From assembly GCA_902590355.1 (NCBI GenBank), contig CACIWI010000002.1, forward strand, positions 25,695-89,694: a DNA stretch of 64,000 nucleotides. The letters run 5' to 3'. Below the pieces are notes generated by a model, which did no database searches, was not told the DNA's origin, and saw only the letters and a list, made by a program, of their open reading frames with translations. Within the stretch, counting starts at the first letter, position 1. Every line of letters begins with the position of its first letter. The translations under genes and the position numbers were made by a program. Below, in pieces: positions 51,971 to 64,000 of this stretch. This DNA is from an uncultured Prochlorococcus sp. (GTDB lineage: Bacteria > Cyanobacteriota > Cyanobacteriia > PCC-6307 > Cyanobiaceae).

Positions 51971-52152
51971 ATTGAGATTTTATCAAGCATCAATACATCT
52001 TGAGCTTGGATTGTATCTCTCTTATCTTCGTTTTCGGGATCTTTATAAGATTCAATTTCAGCTTGAATTTTCTTCTTGTAAACTCCTTTTATATAGTCCA
52101 TTTCTCTTTTGTCTTTGTCAAGAATTGAGAATGGTGATCTTTTCAAGTTCAT
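51967..52152 (-). CDS. small hypothetical protein
   Basis: MNLKRSPFSILDKDKREMDYIKGVYKKKIQAEIESYKDPENEDKRDTIQAQDVLMLDKISI. Confidence 0.55.
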   Translation of the reverse strand: MNLKRSPFSILDKDKREMDYIKGVYKKKIQAEIESYKDPENEDKRDTIQAQDVLMLDKISI

Positions 52153-52180
52153 AACTTTCTCCTTAATAAATAAAATCTAA

Positions 52181-52318
52181 TCAGCTCCAGTTTTTATCAG
52201 ATTCAACAAAGCTATCCAATGTTTGCTGATTCCTGATTTCTTCCTCAAGAAGTTCTTCTTCTGATCTTTCTTCAATCTCAGATTTATGATCTTCTTTTAG
52301 TGTGGATTTCGTAGACAT
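52181..52318 (-). CDS. small acidic hypothetical protein (MSTKSTLKEDHKSEIEERSEEELLEEEIRNQQTLDSFVESDKNWS)
   Basis: 45 aa ORF. Confidence 0.5.
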   Translation of the reverse strand: MSTKSTLKEDHKSEIEERSEEELLEEEIRNQQTLDSFVESDKNWS

Positions 52319-52461
52319 TCGCTCATGACAGCTATATCTATGTTCTAACTAGTTAGAGAGGCCATACGACTTATAAATATGTACGGTTTGAGGTACTCCC
52401 ATATACGGATAAAGGATCAACAATTGAATTGAAATATGTGTAGGATGTTATGAAATTTTTG

Positions 52462-52548
52462 TCAATTTTTGCCTTTAAGAATCATCAACAAAGGTAGACC
52501 AATAAGCATCAAACTTCCATCAATTAATAAAAAAGTATTCAGGTTCAT
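52462..52548 (-). CDS. tiny membrane protein (MNLNTFLLIDGSLMLIGLPLLMILKGKN)
   Basis: 28 aa ORF with ATGA overlap to upstream ORF. Confidence 0.45.
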   Translation of the reverse strand: MNLNTFLLIDGSLMLIGLPLLMILKGKN

Positions 52549-52748
52549 TTTCCCATTCCTTCGGGGGTATTCCAATTGAGAGAAATTCCTTTTTTAATTG
52601 GTTGTTTTTTCATATCATCCATCTCTTTTCTGATTTTGTTGTAGTAGGCCAACTCCTCTGGATCATCAGAACCAAGACCATAATTCATAGTTGCTGCAAT
52701 ATATATTTTGTGCATCCGGTATGACGATAGTGGCATTACTAAAGGCAA
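52545..52748 (-). CDS. small hypothetical protein
   Basis: Likely start MHKIYIAATMNYGLGSDDPEELAYYNKIRKEMDD. Confidence 0.5.
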   Translation of the reverse strand: MPLVMPLSSYRMHKIYIAATMNYGLGSDDPEELAYYNKIRKEMDDMKKQPIKKGISLNWNTPEGMGK

Positions 52749-52788
52749 ACTATTTTAAATATATTTAAATTTTAGTTAAAATGCTGAT

Positions 52789-53175
52789 CTACGAGATCTC
52801 AGTTTCAAAATTTGCTTTATTTTCCTTAATTTCTTGATTAGCCCATTGCAATAATCTTATAGATAATATTAAGTCTCCATCTAACCATGCTCTAATAGCT
52901 ATAGCTCTTCTAGGATCATAAAACTTTTTCTTTCTATACCAATCAAAAACATTCTCATCTGATTTGTCTCCATTGCATGAAAGACAAGCTGGAACACAAT
53001 TTTCTGTTAAGTTTGAACCTCCTTTACTTCGTGGCAATATATGATCAATAGATTCTGAAGGTTTTCCGCAATATATGCATCTTTTGCTCGTAAATGTATG
53101 AATAGACTTTCTCCAAAATCTTAATTTGAGCTTAGGGCATAAATCCTCTAAAAACACTGCATCATCAATATGCAT
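52789..53175 (-). CDS. HNH endonuclease
   Basis: CIYCGKPSESIDHILPRSKGGSNLTENCVPACLSCNGDKSD. Confidence 0.93.
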   Translation of the reverse strand: MHIDDAVFLEDLCPKLKLRFWRKSIHTFTSKRCIYCGKPSESIDHILPRSKGGSNLTENCVPACLSCNGDKSDENVFDWYRKKKFYDPRRAIAIRAWLDGDLILSIRLLQWANQEIKENKANFETEIS

Positions 53176-53465
53176 TAAGATTATTCAATTATCTATATTT
53201 GTGTCATATGAAATTTAAAAATAATTTAAGAAAACGTTATTTTTAAGAAATTAAATTATTTTCAAAAACCAATCACAAAATAATTAATTTCAAATAAATT
53301 TTTAATTAATTTTCTCATCACTTTTTCTACTTTTTAGTTTGAGCTTTTCCTCTTCAGAATTTGGTTATGGGATTAACAATATACATTTAACTTTATAACT
53401 CACCTTTTCTTTATGTGGAGTCTAGTTATTTAGTTGAATATAATAAGCTAAGAATTTCAAAAAAA

Positions 53466-53699
53466 ATGTCTGATAAAAAGAAAGATACAAAAAAAGATTT
53501 TAAAAAGAATAAAGCTATGCTTGCTTACGGAGTGATACAACTAGGATCAGCAGTTGTATCAGCTGTTGCCTTAGTAGCTATTGCACTAAGCTTTTGCTCA
53601 TTAAAAAAAGAATCAAAGTTCTTTAATGAATGTGTTGAAGAAATGAAAGCGACTGGTTCGCCAACAGCTGATGCGGTTCGTTTCTGTACTGGTGGTTAG
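53466..53699 (+). CDS. small membrane protein
   Basis: MSDKKKDTKKDFKKNKAMLAYGVIQLGSAVVSAVALVAIALSFCSLKK; internal start of ORF 53415. Confidence 0.6.
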   Translation: MSDKKKDTKKDFKKNKAMLAYGVIQLGSAVVSAVALVAIALSFCSLKKESKFFNECVEEMKATGSPTADAVRFCTGG

Positions 53700-53855
53700 C
53701 ATTAGGTAAATTAAGTGTTCCGATATTTTTATAAATAATATTTAATTTGTCTTAGTTCATATTAACCATAAATTAATTTTTTCTTATTTTCCCCTTAGTA
53801 AAACTAATAAATAAACTAACTAAAATTTAAGTGGTTATAAATTTAGGAAAATTTT

Positions 53856-54008
53856 ATGAGTGGAGATTATGAGACATTAGAAATCAATCAACCTAAGATT
53901 TCTTATTTTAAAAAGAGATCAGAAGATAATACTTTATGGCTAGAGGAAATGATTAAAGAGATTGAAAAGATTGAAGATACGAATAACAATATATCTGATG
54001 CTGCTTAA
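53856..54008 (+). CDS. small hypothetical protein (MSGDYETLEINQPKISYFKKRSEDNTLWLEEMIKEIEKIEDTNNNISDAA)
   Basis: 50 aa ORF. Confidence 0.5.
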   Translation: MSGDYETLEINQPKISYFKKRSEDNTLWLEEMIKEIEKIEDTNNNISDAA

Positions 54009-54025
54009 TCTACGATGGTTTGTGA

Positions 54026-54145
54026 TTAATGATATTTATTGAGTAATCGATTATAAATTACCAACAATAATATTATTCCACCTATACCAAGAATTGCATG
54101 GTATGGGTCATAATGATTCTGCCAAAGCTCCTTTAAAAATTCCAT
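54026..54145 (-). CDS. tiny membrane protein (MEFLKELWQNHYDPYHAILGIGGIILLLVIYNRLLNKYH)
   Basis: 39 aa ORF, one TM. Confidence 0.45.
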   Translation of the reverse strand: MEFLKELWQNHYDPYHAILGIGGIILLLVIYNRLLNKYH

Positions 54146-54255
54146 TAATTTAGTCTTTGGGTCGAGTTAATATCAAGCGTTTCATTTATTTGTTTTATTG
54201 GAAGAATTACCTAAGGAAAAAATATTAGAAGAATTAGCAAATTTATTAGATGGAT

Positions 54256-54933
54256 TTAAAATCCTTTATATAACTTTAAATAATAAATAATTTCTGATAA
54301 ATCATTAATTTTTTGAATCTTTTCTTGGTTAAATTCATTTATTAATTTATTTAGTATTTCAATATCTTTTGAAAAAAACATTAAATTACATTCCGCTTTA
54401 AGTCCTGAGATAGATCCTGCATATGAGTCTTCTATAACCCATGATTTCCTTGGATCTACATCCAATATTTTTAATGCTCTCAAATAAGGATCAGGCGAAG
54501 GCTTGCCATCAGAAATGAATTTATCATCTCCAAGAACCTTTGTATTGAATAAATTTAACCAGGGATTTGCAGAGCTTTTTATTTTAAAACTTTCACTACT
54601 ACTACTTGTTACTAGTGCAATAGGTAATTTTGTATTTATACAAAATTTGATTAATTCTATTGCTCCTTTAAAAGGTTTTGCTTTAGTAAGTACTTTATCT
54701 ACTTTTAACTTTTGAGTAATGAGTAATTCTTCTATTGTGATTTCTTCATTTATCCATTTGAAAACTTTTTTTGCGCAATCTATTCTTCTTCTTCCTTTTA
54801 ATTCTAGTAATTTATCGTTTGATAAATAGTAATTATATTCTTTTGCGGTTTCATACCAGGCATTAGCTAGTAATGGTTCTGTATCTAGTAATACCCCATC
54901 TAAATCAAAAAGAATTGCTTCTGGTAATTCCAT
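54256..54933 (-). CDS. HAD-superfamily hydrolase (beta-phosphoglucomutase-like)
   Basis: AILFDLDGVLLDTEPL; ALVTSSSSESFKIK; DGKPSPDPYLRAL; VIEDSYAG. Confidence 0.92.
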   Translation of the reverse strand: MELPEAILFDLDGVLLDTEPLLANAWYETAKEYNYYLSNDKLLELKGRRRIDCAKKVFKWINEEITIEELLITQKLKVDKVLTKAKPFKGAIELIKFCINTKLPIALVTSSSSESFKIKSSANPWLNLFNTKVLGDDKFISDGKPSPDPYLRALKILDVDPRKSWVIEDSYAGSISGLKAECNLMFFSKDIEILNKLINEFNQEKIQKINDLSEIIYYLKLYKGF

Positions 54934-55018
54934 CTTTATAGAAATATTTTTTTATTTGCTTTTAAAATTTGGAATATCTTTTTAAAGATAGCTTATTAAA
55001 AGGAGATAATTGCCCCTT

Positions 55019-55037
55019 ATTTTAGATCGACTGTCAA
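55019..55037 (+). repeat. 19-bp dispersed repeat copy A: ATTTTAGATCGACTGTCAA
   Basis: Identical to copy D. Confidence 0.8.
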
Positions 55038-55489
55038 AAATATTTAATATAGCGGTGCAAGTAGTAAGCGTTTCATTTAATCGTTGACTTTTTGGTCTAA
55101 TAATTCTTTTAATTACTTTGGTAAGTTTAAAAAGAATCTCTTAAATTTTCATTCTTTTCTCCTATATGCAGTATCCACTCTCTAAATTATTCTTCTATTG
55201 CATAACTGTCTTCAACTCTTTTACTTTCAAGAAATGAAAATGAAATGAAGTTTATAAGTTGATTTTTGTTCATGTTTATCTTTTAGGTCTCTATTGTTAA
55301 CTTTTAATTAAATACTTATTAAATAAACTTTTGACTATTAAAAAAATATTTAATTTAAAAATTTAGAAATTTTTTAAACAAATTTATTTTTTACTTAATA
55401 ACTTATTAATCCAATAATCTTAGATTATATAATACTTCTATATTTTTACGCCTTAAATATTGAAGACAATCATATAAAAAAAATAATAA

Positions 55490-55711
55490 ATGATTATAAA
55501 AAATTCACCTTCTCCCAAAAACTCAAATCAAGCCCAAGAAATAGGGCATATCAAATATTCTTATAAAGAAAGTTTTAAAAGAGAAAATAAATCTATTTTG
55601 GATGATTCGGAATTTATTGAAAATTACAATAACGCCCTTAAATCACCACAATCAAGAAGATTGTATAAAGATGCAGAGAATGAAATTCATTTGGACTCAA
55701 TTGAGGCCTAG
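55490..55711 (+). CDS. hypothetical protein
   Basis: 73 aa ORF. Confidence 0.55.
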   Translation: MIIKNSPSPKNSNQAQEIGHIKYSYKESFKRENKSILDDSEFIENYNNALKSPQSRRLYKDAENEIHLDSIEA

Positions 55712-55896
55712 AATATCCTACCTCTAGATAAAATTTCTATTTAAAATTATACTAAAAACTACTTTTAAAGATTTTTTAAATATATCTTAAATCCGAACTT
55801 CTTTTTTTAATGTTAGTTTACTTCTACGTTCATCCAATTTATTTGGACGCATGATATGAGAATAGGGAACGGGATTCTCATTAACTGCATAAGATC

Positions 55897-56067
55897 ATGA
55901 ATGAGCTCTCTCAAATAAGAGAAAAAATTACAAAAGCCAAGAGGCTTTATGAAGCCCAAATCTTGGCAACTAAAAATGGAGAAGTTACTCCATATAGAAG
56001 ATCAGTCTTTGAAGAAAGAATTAGGGAAGCACAAAAAGAAATGAGATCGCAAGACACCAAAAAATAA
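55897..56067 (+). CDS. small hypothetical protein (MNELSQIREKITKAKRLYEAQILATKNGEVTPYRRSVFEERIREAQKEMRSQDTKK)
   Basis: 56 aa ORF not in track. Confidence 0.5.
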   Translation: MNELSQIREKITKAKRLYEAQILATKNGEVTPYRRSVFEERIREAQKEMRSQDTKK

Positions 56068-56083
56068 ATTCTTTTGTAAAAAT

Positions 56084-56332
56084 CTATTTTGTATCAGCTA
56101 CATTCTTGAAGAAATCACAGTAAGCCATTAATTCTGATTCGGTTTCAATTTTTAGATTTAAATCATTAATTGCTTTCTTGGTATCAATTCTGTAGCCATA
56201 CCAATCTAGACAAACTTCTCTCTGCTTTTGGGTTTCAGAAACCTTTTGAGTACCTATTTTGTTTGAGTTACTAGTACAACTCGCAAGGAAAATAGTTGAG
56301 AGAGCTAGTAGTGGGAATAGTAGTCTTTTCAT
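56084..56332 (-). CDS. small lipoprotein
   Basis: MKRLLFPLLALSTIFLASCTSNSNK lipobox LASC. Confidence 0.75.
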   Translation of the reverse strand: MKRLLFPLLALSTIFLASCTSNSNKIGTQKVSETQKQREVCLDWYGYRIDTKKAINDLNLKIETESELMAYCDFFKNVADTK

Positions 56333-56335
56333 TTG

Positions 56336-56641
56336 TTAATCACAACAACTTTCCGTTGTTGCCGAAGAAGTCCAAGATGATTCTTCCATTGTTGAAAGGT
56401 CAACTCTATGGGTTGCCATCCAGTCACCATTAGCTTCCACAAACTTCTGAACATTACCTTCTGGAGCTTGATGAATAACAATAACTTTTTGAGGATCTTC
56501 CTTACTTACTCCTCTAAAAAGTGGCTTAATATCAAATTCTGAATGCCTTTTATCTGCTTCTGCACTATCAAATATTGCTGCCCATTCATCGAAAGTGCTT
56601 TCAATTTTAAAAGTAAAAACAGATGTTATAGAACAAGACAT
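56336..56641 (-). CDS. DUF3764-like protein
   Basis: VFTFKIESTFDEWAAIFDSAEADKRHSEFDIKPLFRGVSKEDPQKVIVIHQAPEG, paralogous to 50909. Confidence 0.75.
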   Translation of the reverse strand: MSCSITSVFTFKIESTFDEWAAIFDSAEADKRHSEFDIKPLFRGVSKEDPQKVIVIHQAPEGNVQKFVEANGDWMATHRVDLSTMEESSWTSSATTESCCD

Positions 56642-56691
56642 AATAAAATATTATTTGTAGCTTAAAATAAGTCTGTTTAATTAAGGTTTGG

Positions 56692-57228
56692 TTAATTATC
56701 TTTAAACGGAATTAAAATACCTTTTTTTTCAAATTTGAGCCAACCTTTTTTTTCTAGTATTTTTAAATTTCTCGTTACGGTTACTCTTGTTGAAGAAATT
56801 GAATTGCCGATAATTTTATGGGTGAAATTAAATTCTTTTAAATTTAAATAAATATATTTATCTTTTTTTAAGCCAATTATTGAGGATAAGTATAAAAGAA
56901 ATTCTTTTAATTTTTCTTCTGATTTTTTTATATTACTTATTAATAAAAGTTTTTCCAATTGATCAATTCTTTTTAGACTTTTTGTTAATAAGTCTGTAGA
57001 TGAAAAAAATAGCCCTCTTTTAATTGTTTTAATTTCGCAATTTGTCAACGCAATTAATTTAATATTTTCGTAGTTACATAATTCCAAATTTATTACAATA
57101 TTTTCATTTATTATCCCAACAATATTTTTCTTATTCTTGATTTTTGATTCCATTATTAATATTCCTGATTTGACTTCTAAAATTGTATTTTCTTTAAATT
57201 CTATTTTTTGCTTTTCAGGAATTATCAT
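56692..57228 (-). CDS. Crp/Fnr-family-like transcriptional regulator
   Basis: C-terminal HTH HKIIGNSISSTRVTVTRNLKILEKKGWLKFEKKGILIP; divergent from phnD-like gene. Confidence 0.8.
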   Translation of the reverse strand: MIIPEKQKIEFKENTILEVKSGILIMESKIKNKKNIVGIINENIVINLELCNYENIKLIALTNCEIKTIKRGLFFSSTDLLTKSLKRIDQLEKLLLISNIKKSEEKLKEFLLYLSSIIGLKKDKYIYLNLKEFNFTHKIIGNSISSTRVTVTRNLKILEKKGWLKFEKKGILIPFKDN

Positions 57229-57420
57229 ATTTATTTCTTAAAATACTTTCACCCTAAATTTATAAAGTTAAAAATAAATTAAAAATTATTTAATTCCCTA
57301 ATAAATCTGATTAAAAATTGACTAACTCAAAATAAAACAATTAATCAGAATTTAAACTCTTTTTTGGAAAAACTTAATCTCTTTAGAGCAAGTTAAATGA
57401 GGAGAATAAATTCAACACTA

Positions 57421-58419
57421 ATGAAAAATTTTTTAAAGATAGTCTTAGGGCTATCAATAATTAGTACAAGTATTTCAAGTTGTGGGAACAAATCAAATGA
57501 TTTAATTGGAGATTTAGATTTATCTGATTGCAATCCAAATAATACTGTTGACAGTAAATATTGTGATCGAGATGGAGATTTTCTCGCAGATCTACCCCTT
57601 TCCGAAGATGAATGGATAGATCCTGAAACCATTGTGTTCTCATATACACCTGTTGAAGACCCCTCCGTTTATGCAAAAGTTTGGGAAGATTTTGTAATGC
57701 ATATGTCTAAGGTGACTGGTAAAAAAGTCACTTTCTTACCAGTTCAATCTTATGCTGCTCAAGTTGAGGCAATGAGATCCGGACGTCTTCATGTAGCAGG
57801 AATTAATACTGGAAGCAATACAGTGGCAGCAGCATGTGCAGGAGCAGTTCCATTTGGAATGATGGCTAAAAAAGATTTATCTTACGGTTATGAAATGGAA
57901 ATTATTGTTCCTTCTGATAGTCCAATTAATTCTCCTGCAGATTTAAAAGGTAAAAAAGTTACATTTACATCTAAAACATCTAATTCAGGATTTAAAGCAC
58001 CATCGGCCATTCTTAAAGGAGAATTTGGTCTTGAGGCAAATAAAGATTTCACCCCAGTCTTTTCTGGCAAGCATCAAAATTCAATAATTGGTGTTGCAAA
58101 CAAAGATTATGAAGTAGCACCAATTGCTAACTCAGTTCTTACAAGAATGGATGCAAGAGGTGTTGTTGATTCTTCTAAAATAAGAACTATTTATAAATCC
58201 CAAACCTTCCCAACGACAGGTTATGCTCATGCTCATAATCTACATCCAGCTGTAGTTGCAAAAGTAAAGCAAGCTTTTTACACCTATAACTGGGATAATT
58301 CAACATTAGATAAAGAATTTAAAAAGGCTGATAGATTCATTTCAATAAGTCACAAGCATGATTGGGATGTTATTAGAAAAATAGATAAGGCTAATGGTGT
58401 TGTTTATGATTGCAAATAA
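57421..58419 (+). CDS. phnD: phosphonate/phosphite ABC transporter substrate-binding lipoprotein (PhnD/PtxB family)
   Basis: Lipobox SISSC; KKVTFLPVQSYAAQVEAMRSGRLHVAGINTGSN; DLKGKKVTFTSKTSNSGFKAP; start possibly 57397. Confidence 0.92.
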   Translation: MKNFLKIVLGLSIISTSISSCGNKSNDLIGDLDLSDCNPNNTVDSKYCDRDGDFLADLPLSEDEWIDPETIVFSYTPVEDPSVYAKVWEDFVMHMSKVTGKKVTFLPVQSYAAQVEAMRSGRLHVAGINTGSNTVAAACAGAVPFGMMAKKDLSYGYEMEIIVPSDSPINSPADLKGKKVTFTSKTSNSGFKAPSAILKGEFGLEANKDFTPVFSGKHQNSIIGVANKDYEVAPIANSVLTRMDARGVVDSSKIRTIYKSQTFPTTGYAHAHNLHPAVVAKVKQAFYTYNWDNSTLDKEFKKADRFISISHKHDWDVIRKIDKANGVVYDCK

Positions 58420-58449
58420 AAATTTTAATCATAAATAAAATCAGACTTA

Positions 58450-59217
58450 ATGCTTAAAACAATAAACCTCAAAAAGGTTTATCCAAATGGAGAAGAGGCG
58501 CTTAAAGGAATAAACCTAGAAATTCCTAATGGGCAAGTAGTTGCTCTTATCGGTCCTTCAGGTGCTGGTAAAAGTACTTTTATTAGAACAATAAATAGAC
58601 TAGTTGAGCCCACTTCAGGGAAAGTTTATTTCGCTAATGAAAAAAATGACATTACTTCTTTAAATAAATCTAAATTAAGAAAAATAAGAAGACAAATTGG
58701 AATGATTTTCCAGGAATTTGCTTTGGTAGAAAGATTAAGTGTAATGGAAAATGTCCTTTCCGGCAGATTAGGTTACGTAGGATTTTGGAATAGTTTTTTC
58801 AGGAAATTTCCTCAAAATGATATTGAAGAAGCATTCCGTCTGCTTCAAAGAATTGGACTAGAGCATATGCTTGATAAAAGAGCCGATGAATTGTCAGGAG
58901 GGCAGAGGCAAAGAGTAGGAATTGCTAGAGCTTTGATACAAAATCCAATGTTACTTTTAGTAGATGAACCTACAGCTAGTTTAGATCCCAAAAATTCCAG
59001 GCAAATTATGCGATTAATATGCGAGTTATGTAAGGAAAGAAATCTTGCTGCGATTATAAATATTCATGATGTTTTTCTTGCTCAGAATTTTGCAGAAAGA
59101 ATAATAGGTTTAAAATCTGGAGAAATTGTTTACGATGGCAAGCCAAGTGGCTTATCAGAGACAATACTTACAAAAATATATGGAGAAGAAGACTGGTCTA
59201 AAACCGTAGCAAATTAG
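58450..59217 (+). CDS. phnC: phosphonate-type ABC transporter ATP-binding protein
   Basis: [44 protein letters not shown]. Confidence 0.94.
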
Positions 59218-59230
59218 GAAAATATATTAA

Positions 59231-60028
59231 ATGAATTATAAGAAAGTAATTTGGAAAAGAAAACCGTTAATAAAAAATAGGTTATTGAGAATTGGATTAA
59301 TTTTGCTAATTATTACTTACTTATTATCTGTTTTCCTAACTACCGAAATTGATTGGCAAAGAATTCTTGAAGGGATCCCAAGGGGTAAAATTTTTATATT
59401 TGCTTTTTTCCCTCCAGATTTTATAACTAGATCTAATGAGATTTTGGCAGGTATTTTTGAAAGTCTATGGATGACTATTGTTGCAACTATTGTGGGGATA
59501 CTTATTTCTATACCTGTATCCTTAGGGGCGGCTAAAAACATAGCTCCTAAATTTGTTTATTTCTTATCAAGAGGAGTTATCACATTGTCGAGGAGTTTTC
59601 AGGAAGTTATCCTAGCAATATTTTTTGTTAAGTTAATGGGTTTTGGACCTTTTGCTGGGATGGTAACTCTGAGTTTATCAACAATAGGGTTTTTCGCTAA
59701 ATTATTATCTGAAGATATTGAAGACATTAATAAATCCCAAGCTGAAGCAATCAAATCTACTGGCAGCAGTTGGTTTCAATGGGTTAATTATGGTGTCCAG
59801 CCTCAAGTTATGCCAAGATTCATTGGATTATCTTTATACAGATTGGATATTAATTTTAGAGAGTCAGCGGTAATTGGAATTGTTGGGGGAGGAGGTATTG
59901 GTTCTACCTTAAATACAGCTTTTGATAGATATGAATTTGAGACTGCAGCGGCTGTTCTTATCGTAATTATTTCTATCGTGATGATTGTTGAATATACATC
60001 TAGTCATCTCAGGAAATTAATAAAGTAA
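59231..60028 (+). CDS. phnE: phosphonate-type ABC transporter permease 1
   Basis: EAIKSTGSSWFQWVNYGVQPQVMPRFIGLSLYRLDINFRESAVIGIVGGGGIG. Confidence 0.92.
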   Translation: MNYKKVIWKRKPLIKNRLLRIGLILLIITYLLSVFLTTEIDWQRILEGIPRGKIFIFAFFPPDFITRSNEILAGIFESLWMTIVATIVGILISIPVSLGAAKNIAPKFVYFLSRGVITLSRSFQEVILAIFFVKLMGFGPFAGMVTLSLSTIGFFAKLLSEDIEDINKSQAEAIKSTGSSWFQWVNYGVQPQVMPRFIGLSLYRLDINFRESAVIGIVGGGGIGSTLNTAFDRYEFETAAAVLIVIISIVMIVEYTSSHLRKLIK

Positions 60029-60843
60029 TGCCAATAATAAAACAAAAGGATTACAAAACCTGGAAAAAATTTGATCGAAAAAGAGATTTACAAAACTGGC
60101 TTTGTTGGTTCTTAGGTACTTTAATTTTTAGCTTTTGTTTCGGTCTGATTAGTAGTAAAACAATCTGGTTTTATGTTTTTGATTCACATAATGAGGCTTT
60201 AGATCTTTTAGGTAGGATGTTTCCTCCAGAAACTAATTATTTCTTCACTTTAATAAAACCTATTTGGGATACTTTAAATATCGCGACTATTGGTACAACG
60301 ATTGGAACTTTAATTGCAATACCATTAGCTTTTTTATCCGCAAACAATACTACCCCAAGTAAAAAGTTTATAAGACCTTTAGCCTTATTTTGCATAGTTT
60401 CAAGCAGATCAATTAATTCAGTAATCTGGGCATTACTTCTGGTTGCAGTTGTCGGTCCAGGAGTCTTGGCTGGCATAATTGCTATCGGATTAAGATCGAT
60501 AGGATTTTGTGGAAAATTACTTTATGAAGCTATAGAGGAAATTGATGAAAACCAAATTGAAGCTATTGAGGCAACAGGGGCAAATAAAGCACAAATTATG
60601 ACCTTTGGCATAGTGCCTCAAATTCTCCCAGCATTTACGAGTATTTCTATTTATAGGTGGGATATAAATATTAGAGAAGCAACTGTTGTTGGCTTAGTTG
60701 GAGCAGGAGGTATAGGGATAGAATTAGATGCTCAAATAGGAGACTTAGCTTGGGCTAAGGTATCAGTTATTTTATTAGCAATAGTAGTGGCGGTAGTTTT
60801 TAGTGAATGGATTACAGCAAAAATAAGAAAGGCTATTATTTAG
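60028..60843 (+). CDS. phnE: phosphonate-type ABC transporter permease 2
   Basis: EAIEATGANKAQIMTFGIVPQILPAFTSISIYRWDINIREATVVGLVGAGGIG; start overlaps previous stop. Confidence 0.92.
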   Translation: MPIIKQKDYKTWKKFDRKRDLQNWLCWFLGTLIFSFCFGLISSKTIWFYVFDSHNEALDLLGRMFPPETNYFFTLIKPIWDTLNIATIGTTIGTLIAIPLAFLSANNTTPSKKFIRPLALFCIVSSRSINSVIWALLLVAVVGPGVLAGIIAIGLRSIGFCGKLLYEAIEEIDENQIEAIEATGANKAQIMTFGIVPQILPAFTSISIYRWDINIREATVVGLVGAGGIGIELDAQIGDLAWAKVSVILLAIVVAVVFSEWITAKIRKAII

Positions 60844-60888
60844 ATTAAATTAAATACTAGTATGAATATTTGAGTAAAAAAATTTTAA

Positions 60889-61899
60889 ATGCAATTTTCT
60901 GATAGATATCTAAGTATTTGGGTTTTCTTAGCAATGTGTATTGGATCTTTATCCGGTTATTTATTTCCTAATTTATCTCAATTTATAGGCGGATTAGAAC
61001 TCTCAAGAATAAATCTTCCAATAGCAATTCTTATCTGGGGAATGATTTTCCCAATGATGTTATCAATAGATTTCAAGTCAATAATAAATTTGAAATATAA
61101 GATTAAAGGATTTTCTATTGTCCTTTTTATTAATTGGTTAATAAAACCAGTTGCAATGGCAATCATTGCAGCCTCTTTTTTATATTTTTTATATGGTAAT
61201 TTGATAGATCCTGTACTTGCTAAAGAATATGTTTCTGGAATGATCCTATTAGGAATAGCGCCATGTACAGCAATGGTTTTTGTCTGGAGTAATCTTGCTA
61301 AAGGCGATCCTTTATTTACTTTAATACAAGTAGCTATTAATGATCTAATATTAATTTTAGCCTTTCCATTATTGTCAAAAATTCTTTTAGGATTTAACAG
61401 TATAGATATCCCGTTAGATACTGTTTTCGGTTCTGTAATAATCTTTATTTTGGTACCACTTTTTCTAGCAATATTTTTAAAAAATAAAATCTATAGCGAA
61501 AAAAAAATAAAAAGTATTTTGAATAAAAGTAAAAGTTATTCGTTATTTTTTTTAATTCTTACAGTCTTTTTATTATTCTTTGTTCAATCAAAATCTATAT
61601 TACAAAATCCTATTCATATAATCTTAATTTCAATTCCATTAATAATACAGACTCTTTTTATTTTTTATTTAACTGCTTTTTCAATGAAGTTTTTTAGGCA
61701 AAAGTATTCTATTTCCTGTCCAGGCTCGATGATAGCCGCTTCAAACTTTTTTGAACTTGCAGTAGCTGTATCGATAACTCTTTTTGGTATTAATTCAGGA
61801 GCTGCTTTGGCTACCATAGTTGGGGTACTAGTAGAAGTTCCTTTGATGCTTTATTTAGTAAATATTTCTAAGTCTTCCAAAATATTATTTATAAAGTAA
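60889..61899 (+). CDS. ACR3-family arsenite efflux permease
   Basis: LLGIAPCTAMVFVWSNLAKGDPLFTLIQVAINDLILILAFPL contains ACR3 conserved Cys. Confidence 0.88.
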   Translation: MQFSDRYLSIWVFLAMCIGSLSGYLFPNLSQFIGGLELSRINLPIAILIWGMIFPMMLSIDFKSIINLKYKIKGFSIVLFINWLIKPVAMAIIAASFLYFLYGNLIDPVLAKEYVSGMILLGIAPCTAMVFVWSNLAKGDPLFTLIQVAINDLILILAFPLLSKILLGFNSIDIPLDTVFGSVIIFILVPLFLAIFLKNKIYSEKKIKSILNKSKSYSLFFLILTVFLLFFVQSKSILQNPIHIILISIPLIIQTLFIFYLTAFSMKFFRQKYSISCPGSMIAASNFFELAVAVSITLFGINSGAALATIVGVLVEVPLMLYLVNISKSSKILFIK

Positions 61900-62056
61900 T
61901 ATTTTCTTCTTCAAGTTTTTTCTTTAGTTCTAGTGGCATATAAGTAATATCTTTTTTAACTGCATCTATCGCATCTTTATACTTTTGAGGATTAGATAAA
62001 AGCGTTTTTATCAAGTTGTATTGACTTTCTATTTCCTGAGAGGAAAATTTACTCAT
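61889..62056 (-). CDS. small hypothetical protein (MSKFSSQEIESQYNLIKTLLSNPQKYKDAIDAVKKDITYMPLELKKKLEEENITL)
   Basis: 55 aa ORF, convergent 11-nt overlap with ACR3 gene. Confidence 0.5.
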   Translation of the reverse strand: MSKFSSQEIESQYNLIKTLLSNPQKYKDAIDAVKKDITYMPLELKKKLEEENITL

Positions 62057-62080
62057 TTATAAAAACTTATTACTTTTTTT

Positions 62081-62099
62081 ATTTTAGATTGACTGTCAA
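62081..62099 (+). repeat. 19-bp dispersed repeat copy B: ATTTTAGATTGACTGTCAA
   Basis: 1 mismatch to A/D. Confidence 0.75.
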
Positions 62100-62153
62100 T
62101 TTAATCTGTCTTTAAATATCAACTCCTAAAGTAAATTTAATTTTTAAATTATT

Positions 62154-62411
62154 TTGGGTTACTTTAAAAAAGAATTTATTAAATCACTTAAAGTTAAAGG
62201 GTCCATATTTTTAATTGTGTTAATTATTGGATTTATTTACTCAAGTCCAAAATCAAAAGTAATTATTGCAAATTCTTTGACTTCTTCCGCTAAATTTTTA
62301 AACGAAACTGTAGAAATAACAGATAAAGATAGTTGGTTTTCTGAACCTGATTTCATTTTTAGTCTTAGGTTAAAATTACGAGAATTATTGAGAGGAACTC
62401 AAAGAGGTTGA
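62154..62411 (+). CDS. small membrane-anchored hypothetical protein
   Basis: 85 aa ORF, one TM. Confidence 0.5.
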   Translation: MGYFKKEFIKSLKVKGSIFLIVLIIGFIYSSPKSKVIIANSLTSSAKFLNETVEITDKDSWFSEPDFIFSLRLKLRELLRGTQRG

Positions 62412-62431
62412 GAAGGAGCTAAATGCTAATT

Positions 62432-62450
62432 ATGGTAGATCGACTGTCAA
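62432..62450 (+). repeat. 19-bp dispersed repeat copy C: ATGGTAGATCGACTGTCAA
   Basis: 2 mismatches to A/D; overlaps stop codon of the 62447 CDS. Confidence 0.75.
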
Positions 62451-62755
62451 TCGTGATATCCAACTTTAGAAACAATATTTCCTGAAACAGGGTCAGTAAC
62501 TCCAAGTTCTGGAGACAACTCTTCCATAAATCCTCTAACCTCATCAAGGTGAGCAATCATAGCTGGTCTTTGAGCTGAAATAGCTTCTGCACTTTTCCAG
62601 ATCCCAACAAAACAGTAATCATAATCTCCAGTTTTAGCGATATATCTTTGAGTCATTCCCTCAAAACTTGTTTTATCTATTACTTCGAAATACTTATCTA
62701 CACAATCAGACTTTAATTTAAATCGAACAACATTCATGAAATTTTGAGCAGTCAT
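62447..62755 (-). CDS. antibiotic-biosynthesis-monooxygenase/dimeric alpha-beta barrel-like small protein
   Basis: MNVVRFKLKSDCVDKYFEVIDKT...DYDYCFVGIWKSAEAISAQRPAMIAHLDEVRGFMEEL. Confidence 0.65.
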   Translation of the reverse strand: MTAQNFMNVVRFKLKSDCVDKYFEVIDKTSFEGMTQRYIAKTGDYDYCFVGIWKSAEAISAQRPAMIAHLDEVRGFMEELSPELGVTDPVSGNIVSKVGYHD

Positions 62756-62756
62756 A

Positions 62757-62780
62757 AAAAAAGAGGGTTTTTATACCCTC
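62757..62780 (-). terminator. hairpin GGAGGGTATAAAAACCCTCTTTTTTT abutting ATG of 62447 CDS
   Basis: GAGGGT/ACCCTC stem followed by T7 on minus strand. Confidence 0.7.
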
Positions 62781-62782
62781 CA

Positions 62783-62801
62783 ATTTTAGATCGACTGTCA
62801 A
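62783..62801 (+). repeat. 19-bp dispersed repeat copy D: ATTTTAGATCGACTGTCAA
   Basis: Identical to copy A. Confidence 0.8.
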
Positions 62802-62810
62802 TCAATTAAA

Positions 62811-63116
62811 TTATCCCATCGCTGCTACTTCTTCAGCAAGTTGTTTATTTCTTAGAATAACTTCTTCATCATTAAAAACAGGAAGTACATTCCATTCAAC
62901 GCCAAATTTTGCTCTCCAAATACCAAAATGTTCAGCCATTTTAAGATGACTGTCAGCTTTGCATGTTACGAAAACTTCTCTGGTTTGAGGAGCATGGACT
63001 CAACTTATCAATTCAAAGCCGTCAAAATTATCCTTAAGTGCGCCGGAAGCAATATATTGTTCAAAGAGTTTGTACCCTTTTCTAAATTCTTTAAAACTCT
63101 TGCGGTAGTTGGGCTT
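62811..63116 (-). pseudogene. DUF3303-like protein with in-frame TGA and missing N-terminus
   Basis: KSFKEFRKGYKLFEQYIASGALKDNFDGFELIS*VHAPQTREVFVTCKADSHLKMAEHFGIWRAKFGVEWNVLPVFNDEEVILRNKQLAEEVAAMG*. Confidence 0.65.
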
Positions 63117-63123
63117 TGGGCTA

Positions 63124-63169
63124 TGCCCTCGCCGAGAATTGAACTCGGGGCCTCTCCCTTGCCAAGGGA
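63124..63169 (-). pseudogene. 3' half of a tRNA (tRNA-Thr GGT-like), D-arm and 5' acceptor absent
   Basis: TCCCTTGGCAAGGGAGAGGCCCCGAGTTCAATTCTCGGCGAGGGCA: anticodon arm, T-arm CCGAG-TTCAATT-CTCGG, 3' acceptor CGAGGGC plus A. Confidence 0.75.
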
Positions 63170-63478
63170 AATTTTTATATACTAAAGCTATTGGTATGAC
63201 TGATGTTAATTGGTATATATTACTAAGTATTAACTATTTAGTGCGATAACTAGTGCGAAGAGAATTAAAGATAAATAAATTGGCGAGGTACTAATTCTAT
63301 TAATAGTTCTACAAAAATCTTTGATTATATTCAGGCTAACTAAAATAATTATTAAGATTAGGGTAAGCTAAGCCATAACCCCTTGTTAGAACTAAATTTA
63401 TTCTACAAATCTATAATATTTAATGCTATAAATACAGTAGTTACACCTACTTTATGTCTTTTTTTGAGCAAGAGCTAG

Positions 63479-63850
63479 ATGCAAAGATGGGCAAATCAAA
63501 TAGTAATGCCTAAAAGAGCAACTAAACAGGAAACTGAATTAAGGGTTGCACATGCTGCTGAATTAGTTGCTGAAGGACAAGCCTATTCATCTATTACTTC
63601 CCTTGTTGCCGCAAAATATGGTATCTCAAGAAGAAGAGCCAGGCAGATCACTTCGAATGCTTATCTTTTATTGAAAAATGATATTGAGGAAGGGGACTTA
63701 AATCGCCCTGAAATGACAGCGAAATTAGTATGTACATTAGAAAATGCAATGCATAGAGCAATGAGAGAAAAAGAATATTCTGCAGTTGCAAGTAATGCAA
63801 AAGTCCTTATGAAATTAATAGGTTTAGAAGCAAAAACACAAATTAGATAA
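63479..63850 (+). CDS. HTH protein resembling phage/satellite terminase small subunit
   Basis: AAKYGISRRRARQITSNAYLLLKNDI...LENAMHRAMREKEYSAVASNAKVLMKLIGLEAK; real start possibly MPKRATKQE. Confidence 0.5.
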   Translation: MQRWANQIVMPKRATKQETELRVAHAAELVAEGQAYSSITSLVAAKYGISRRRARQITSNAYLLLKNDIEEGDLNRPEMTAKLVCTLENAMHRAMREKEYSAVASNAKVLMKLIGLEAKTQIR

Positions 63851-64000
63851 TTACTTTTTATTAAAAATATAACTTGCAAAAATCCCTTTCTTTTTGTTTC
63901 TTTTTTTTTCTTTTAAACAATTCATAACTTGCTTATAACTTTAAAATGTGATTCTAATAATGCATTCAATTCTTCTAAAGCAAAGCAGTGGTCTTGGATG

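Follow-up and report, generated by a model that had tools for sequence, protein, structure and literature searches.

A displaced tRNA-Thr(GGT) 3' half lies at the probable junction of two tandem tRNA-targeted elements in Prochlorococcus

Why does a Prochlorococcus genome that keeps an intact tRNA-Thr(GGT) gene also carry a severed 3' half of one? We addressed this in a 64,000-nt stretch of DNA from an uncultured Prochlorococcus sp. (the window), which is part of contig C2 in an assembly of 946,674 bp and 42 contigs that is 59% complete (G, C and L numbers are our handles for genomes, contigs and loci). Its RNA families, which are cyanobacterial, and its close relatives within the genus bear out the assignment to Prochlorococcus. 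The minus strand at 63124-63169 reads TCCCTTGGCAAGGGAGAGGCCCCGAGTTCAATTCTCGGCGAGGGCA, which comprises an anticodon arm with the loop TTGGCAA (anticodon GGC), a T-arm, a 3' acceptor and the discriminator A, and which breaks off at nt 28, on the 5' side of the anticodon stem. A first-pass annotation, made from the sequence, had read the same parts (anticodon arm, T-arm, 3' acceptor, A73), had assigned the piece to the 3' half of a tRNA-Thr(GGT) and had noted a GGC-for-GGT change in the anticodon. The parts and the change are as it described, the 5' strand that would pair with the acceptor is absent, and alignment with the genome's intact tRNA-Thr(GGT), on the minus strand of contig C8 (G000:C8:12346-12419), confirms the identity: the match spans 89 nt with 88% identity (E=3e-26), beginning at tRNA nt 28, reaching the 3' end of the gene and running on through 43 nt of flank (63081-63123). 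Placed ungapped against the 46 nt of the intact 3' half, the fragment agrees at 39/46 positions, while the best of 30 shuffled windows reached 27/46; the match is far above chance. The window's own Thr(TGT) tRNA matches much more poorly than Thr(GGT). We give almost no credence to the idea that this piece works as a shortened tRNA or as a small RNA. The Rfam tRNA model does score 63188-63124 marginally above its cut-off (30.7 bits vs 29), but the piece has no pairing 5' acceptor strand, ARAGORN calls no tRNA at 63124-63169, the GGC anticodon occurs in this copy only among the related copies compared, and the genome keeps the intact gene.

If the fragment was displaced by an integration, an intact gene should lie on the same strand across the inserted DNA. 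The first-pass annotation had predicted just that, a minus-strand tRNA-Thr(GGT) with a matching 3' half to the right of position 64000. The window stops at the end of C2, and the gene is found on C8, next to tRNA-Tyr, aroQ and miaE. Because G064 runs from the C2 tail (95.7%) through ~272 bp into C8:1-5309 (99.6%), the two contigs are probably adjacent, which would put the intact gene ~13.4 kb to the right of the fragment. The intact tRNA and the displaced 3' fragment thus share a strand, here on two contigs linked through G064. In five relatives (G216, G124, G156, G245 and G157) both lie on one contig, 15-24 kb apart, in the order and on the strand that had been predicted.

We then compared sites with and without an insertion. 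To the left of the array lies a conserved chromosomal flank, the left core, whose part 52200-52804 is present in 252/266 genomes. Among the best 30 left-core loci, more than 20 pass ~20 nt later into an intact tRNA-Thr. These are empty sites, and at most of them the tRNA-Thr shows 100% identity across 73 nt. Of the same 30 loci, five are occupied (G234, G157, G011, G216 and G038), and there the left core and the same 20 nt are followed by nt 28-73 of the tRNA (98-100%), with the break at nt 28, and then by element sequence. At occupied sites 46 bp are duplicated, with sharp ends. G157 holds a complete single element on one contig, in the order left core, fragment, repeat, F5 (a small gene described below), 22 kb, recombinase, repeat, intact tRNA, aroQ. 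The empty-site comparison that the first-pass annotation had proposed thus yields at least 20 Prochlorococcus genomes in which the left core is joined to an intact tRNA-Thr, and neither outcome it had named against itself was seen, namely the lack of a matching intact tRNA or a fragment conserved in all genomes without a variable segment. These data also bear on whether a tRNA piece was simply copied by tandem duplication or gene conversion, with no mobile element. Such pieces can duplicate segmentally, and the copy does include 43 nt of flank, but the same base of the anticodon stem is the break point in unrelated contexts at three tRNAs, and what distinguishes occupied from empty sites is whole elements with a recombinase at the far end, which contradicts plain duplication; we consider this origin very unlikely.

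Table 1. Features of the window around the tRNA fragment.
Positions	Strand	Feature	Basis or remark
51971..52804	+	Conserved chromosomal flank (left core)	Adjoins intact tRNA-Thr in empty-site genomes
52805..63080	.	Left-hand element remnant	Synteny, domain matches
57397..61899	+	Cargo operon phnD, phnC, phnE, phnE (phosphonate/phosphite ABC transporter) and ACR3 arsenite efflux	
62811..63080	-	DUF3303-family pseudogene, 5' end missing at att flank	73% to C8 paralogue
63081..63123	-	43-nt flank, normally 3' of intact tRNA-Thr	Right end of left-hand (phn) element
63124..63169	-	3' half of tRNA-Thr(GGT), nt 28-73, anticodon GGC	att core, inter-element junction
63170..64000	.	Left end of right-hand element, probably continuing as C8:1-12303 to intact tRNA-Thr	G064 synteny
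63240..63257	-	Paired 12-bp-period direct repeat CGCACTAGTTATCGCACT, candidate arm-type recombinase site	90 nt from core motif
63506..63850	+	F5, gene for a 114-aa helix-turn-helix phage-type protein	Marks element distal end

The fragment had been taken for an integration boundary with the element on its right. It is indeed an attachment scar with an element to the right, but it is not the edge between island and chromosome. That edge lies near 52804, and at the fragment two elements meet in tandem: to the left one of about 10 kb with phnCDEE-acr3, which carries genes for phosphonate uptake, and to the right one of about 13 kb, which carries genes for phosphonate degradation. The left-hand remnant encodes an HNH endonuclease, a DUF3764 protein, a Crp-type regulator, phnD-phnC-phnE-phnE, acr3 and a truncated DUF3303 protein. 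Its cargo genes match NCBIfam TIGR01098, TIGR02315, TIGR01097 (twice) and TIGR00832 above cut-off, and the same phnD-phnC-phnE-phnE-acr3 cargo lies between F5 and the intact tRNA in G216, G124 and G156. The DUF3303 pseudogene has an in-frame stop at 63000-63002; a full-length paralogue stands at C8:10459-10806. Compared with G216, the window lacks ~1.5 kb at its left edge, including a fragment and F5, and a fragment looked for at 52804 is absent from the window. As the left-hand element lacks its own distal fragment, we read its integration history from relatives. The right-hand element encodes an ABC transporter and a set of three phosphonate-degradation proteins; the TIGR03364 oxidoreductase among them scores above cut-off, and the other two, an HD-domain oxygenase-like protein and a PhnX-like hydrolase, fall below their curated cut-offs.

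The tRNA itself records which element the fragment belongs to. Two T-arm alleles occur, and displaced fragments, empty sites and the genome's own intact tRNA share one of them. The window fragment carries the other, together with the flank of the intact tRNA in G216 (97.8%, against 88% over 89 nt for the C8 copy and its flank), which itself lies beside phn cargo. Since both T-arm allele and flank match G216, we assign the fragment to the right end of the phn element. Judged from these sequences, the allele distribution appears to be the swap predicted by the Campbell model. Separately, we observe that the two alleles occur with compensating stem changes in the intact, presumably essential tRNA-Thr (L014, L016-L018 and L036 vs L003 and L021-L025).

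Could the junction be an artifact? The genome comes from an amplified single cell, its assembly is fragmented and the window stops at a contig end, so that a chimeric assembly might have joined the phn element to the fragment. G245, in a single 164-kb contig, has the same tandem array (its left-edge fragment is likewise absent), and G150 has another tandem junction in which the phn element is joined to flank and fragment. Because these genomes of other species carry tandem junctions, a chimera is highly improbable.

An autonomous element needs a recombinase gene beside the tRNA, which decayed members lack, and the first-pass annotation had expected a tyrosine recombinase near the intact tRNA. 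The expectation is borne out in many relatives, where one adjoins the intact tRNA-Thr (453 aa in G124; the relatives' recombinase at this site matches the phrog_1 integrase at E=5e-8), but not in the 59%-complete genome of the window, which has no PF00589 or other recombinase match. We found no recombinase remnant beside the intact tRNA on C8, where similarity to right ends that bear a recombinase ceases ~30 nt beyond the flank. Both elements look probably non-autonomous, either immobile or in need of help, and as no recombinase matched in this partial genome, their present-day mobility is doubtful. Divergent relatives of the recombinase adjoin tRNA-Gly(GCC) and tRNA-Ala(GGC), so that at tRNA-Thr, -Gly and -Ala alike the recombinase lies beside intact copies and F5 beside fragments. 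Some tRNA-Ala(GGC) elements sit on the 5' side of the gene: the recombinase adjoins the tRNA 5' end (L136, L138), or F5 lies beside a 5'-half fragment (L061-L064, L069, L078, L082), which suggests that insertion into tRNA-Ala can take either orientation at a near-palindromic anticodon arm.

Across the elements, F5 marks the end opposite the recombinase. All 63 F5 loci are in Prochlorococcus or single cells of the same family, and upstream of most of them lies a piece of tRNA-Thr, -Ala or -Gly whose break is at the anticodon arm. In the window F5 could also begin earlier, at 63479, but in several relatives that longer frame is closed. F5 has no relatives among IMG/VR or INPHARED phages, nor in the PDB by sequence or fold, and we rejected it as a core or phage gene. 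BFVD returns uncharacterised phage helix-turn-helix proteins only (best E 2.5e-4). A role as TerS is a guess, given that terminase small subunits match there at E about 0.5-1. We also rejected the idea that F5 determines the target: in its tree, loci with one target tend to group together, yet targets switch (13 changes vs 21.9 after shuffling).

Between the fragment and F5 lies CGCACTAGTTATCGCACT, the sole copy within the window. The pair YGCACTN6YGCACT is present in 47/53 F5 loci. Its start keeps a set distance from the core motif, exactly 90 nt at 27/27 Thr loci and at 3/3 Gly loci, and 81-82 nt at Ala loci; from F5 it lies anywhere between 21 and 229 nt away. On the recombinase side, where pairs were scored allowing variant letters, the start is at +139 or +151 for Thr, +139 or +129 for Gly and +137 to +139 for Ala. 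Lambda-type integration employs a tyrosine integrase with core and arm-type sites. The present arrangement resembles it in having a core in the target, flanked to either side by short repeated sites whose distances are fixed; it differs in that binding of the repeats by the recombinase is, for these elements, a prediction from their sequence. Repeats kept in fixed phase with the core on both sides, across targets whose intervening sequences differ, are what one would expect of arm-type integrase sites, although the sequences compared are related.

Together, we consider it very probable that the fragment is an att scar, left by site-specific integration in Prochlorococcus with the anticodon arm of tRNA-Thr(GGT) as its target. 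In such an event, a tyrosine recombinase whose gene lies at the element's tRNA-proximal end would join the element to the chromosome inside the anticodon arm; the element's own 3' half and flank would restore the tRNA, and the 46 bp of the host's 3' half would be displaced to the far side, beside the paired repeats and F5. At this locus the event would have taken place twice. The phosphonate-uptake/arsenite element would have entered first. The phosphonate-degradation element would then have inserted into the same tRNA, thereby moving the first element's 3' half to 63124-63169, between the two. Deletions would later have taken away the leftmost fragment together with the F5 copy beside it and, we infer, both recombinase genes. 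A more speculative extension, possible but rather doubtful, is that such recombinase-less cargo elements are mobile in trans through a full att code, made up of a near-palindromic core, phase-locked repeats and F5 as a directionality or packaging factor. If true, the near-palindromic core would also account for the insertions in both orientations at tRNA-Ala, including those beside the tRNA 5' end.

What kind of elements are these? Hackl and colleagues reportedly described, in 2023, tycheposons of Prochlorococcus that target tRNA genes, carry nutrient-acquisition cargo and occupy genomic island sites. According to PMC10872708, tycheposons span 4-200 kb, use seven tRNA genes and encode a tyrosine recombinase. 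Our elements share integration into a tRNA gene, a tRNA-end tyrosine recombinase (in relatives), a size within 4-200 kb, nutrient-acquisition cargo and location at a genomic island site; they differ in that the window's genome, 59% complete, yielded no recombinase match. They are members of the known tRNA-targeted integrative elements, tycheposon-like rather than proven tycheposons. They might instead form a separate family. More than one integrase family does exist, since PMC10187409 reports a second picocyanobacterial one at tRNA-Phe and tRNA-Cys, distinct from the tycheposon integrases, but our elements agree with the account of tycheposons in PMC10872708 in recombinase type, targeted tRNAs, size range and nutrient cargo, which makes a separate family unlikely. 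For tRNA-targeted islands generally, the Islander work (PMC4383910) takes the regenerated intact tRNA and the displaced 3' fragment as end points. These two marks delimit our elements as well; the difference is that the displaced fragment here lies between tandem elements and not at the chromosome edge.

The locus provides base-level end points for the entry of phosphorus-acquisition genes into Prochlorococcus at one tRNA, and natural genomes present the empty, single-insertion and tandem-insertion states of tRNA-Thr. Repeat spacing and F5 can serve as markers for elements even after recombinase loss, and the proposed integration mechanism is testable in the laboratory.

Two smaller features of these islands were also seen. 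A short intergenic repeat, TTTTAGATCGACTGTCAATC, separates single small island genes at 62087-62100, 62438-62451 and 62789-62802, with further copies at 55025-55038 (one mismatch) and at C8:10437 and 10859. Nine relatives have 3-22 copies per genome, and a reversed control gave none. Junctions of small-module presence and absence coincide exactly with it: G156 and G150 lack the gene at 62447-62755 between two copies, and G124 has a block of ~1.27 kb between copies that is missing from the window. The repeat may mark a module-exchange mechanism or may be an island repeat that has already been described. Finally, G150 carries a short element of ~3.7 kb between fragment and intact tRNA (C11:6867-10248, L043), with two DNA methylase genes (N6_N4_Mtase) and one unassigned gene, possibly a restriction-modification set.
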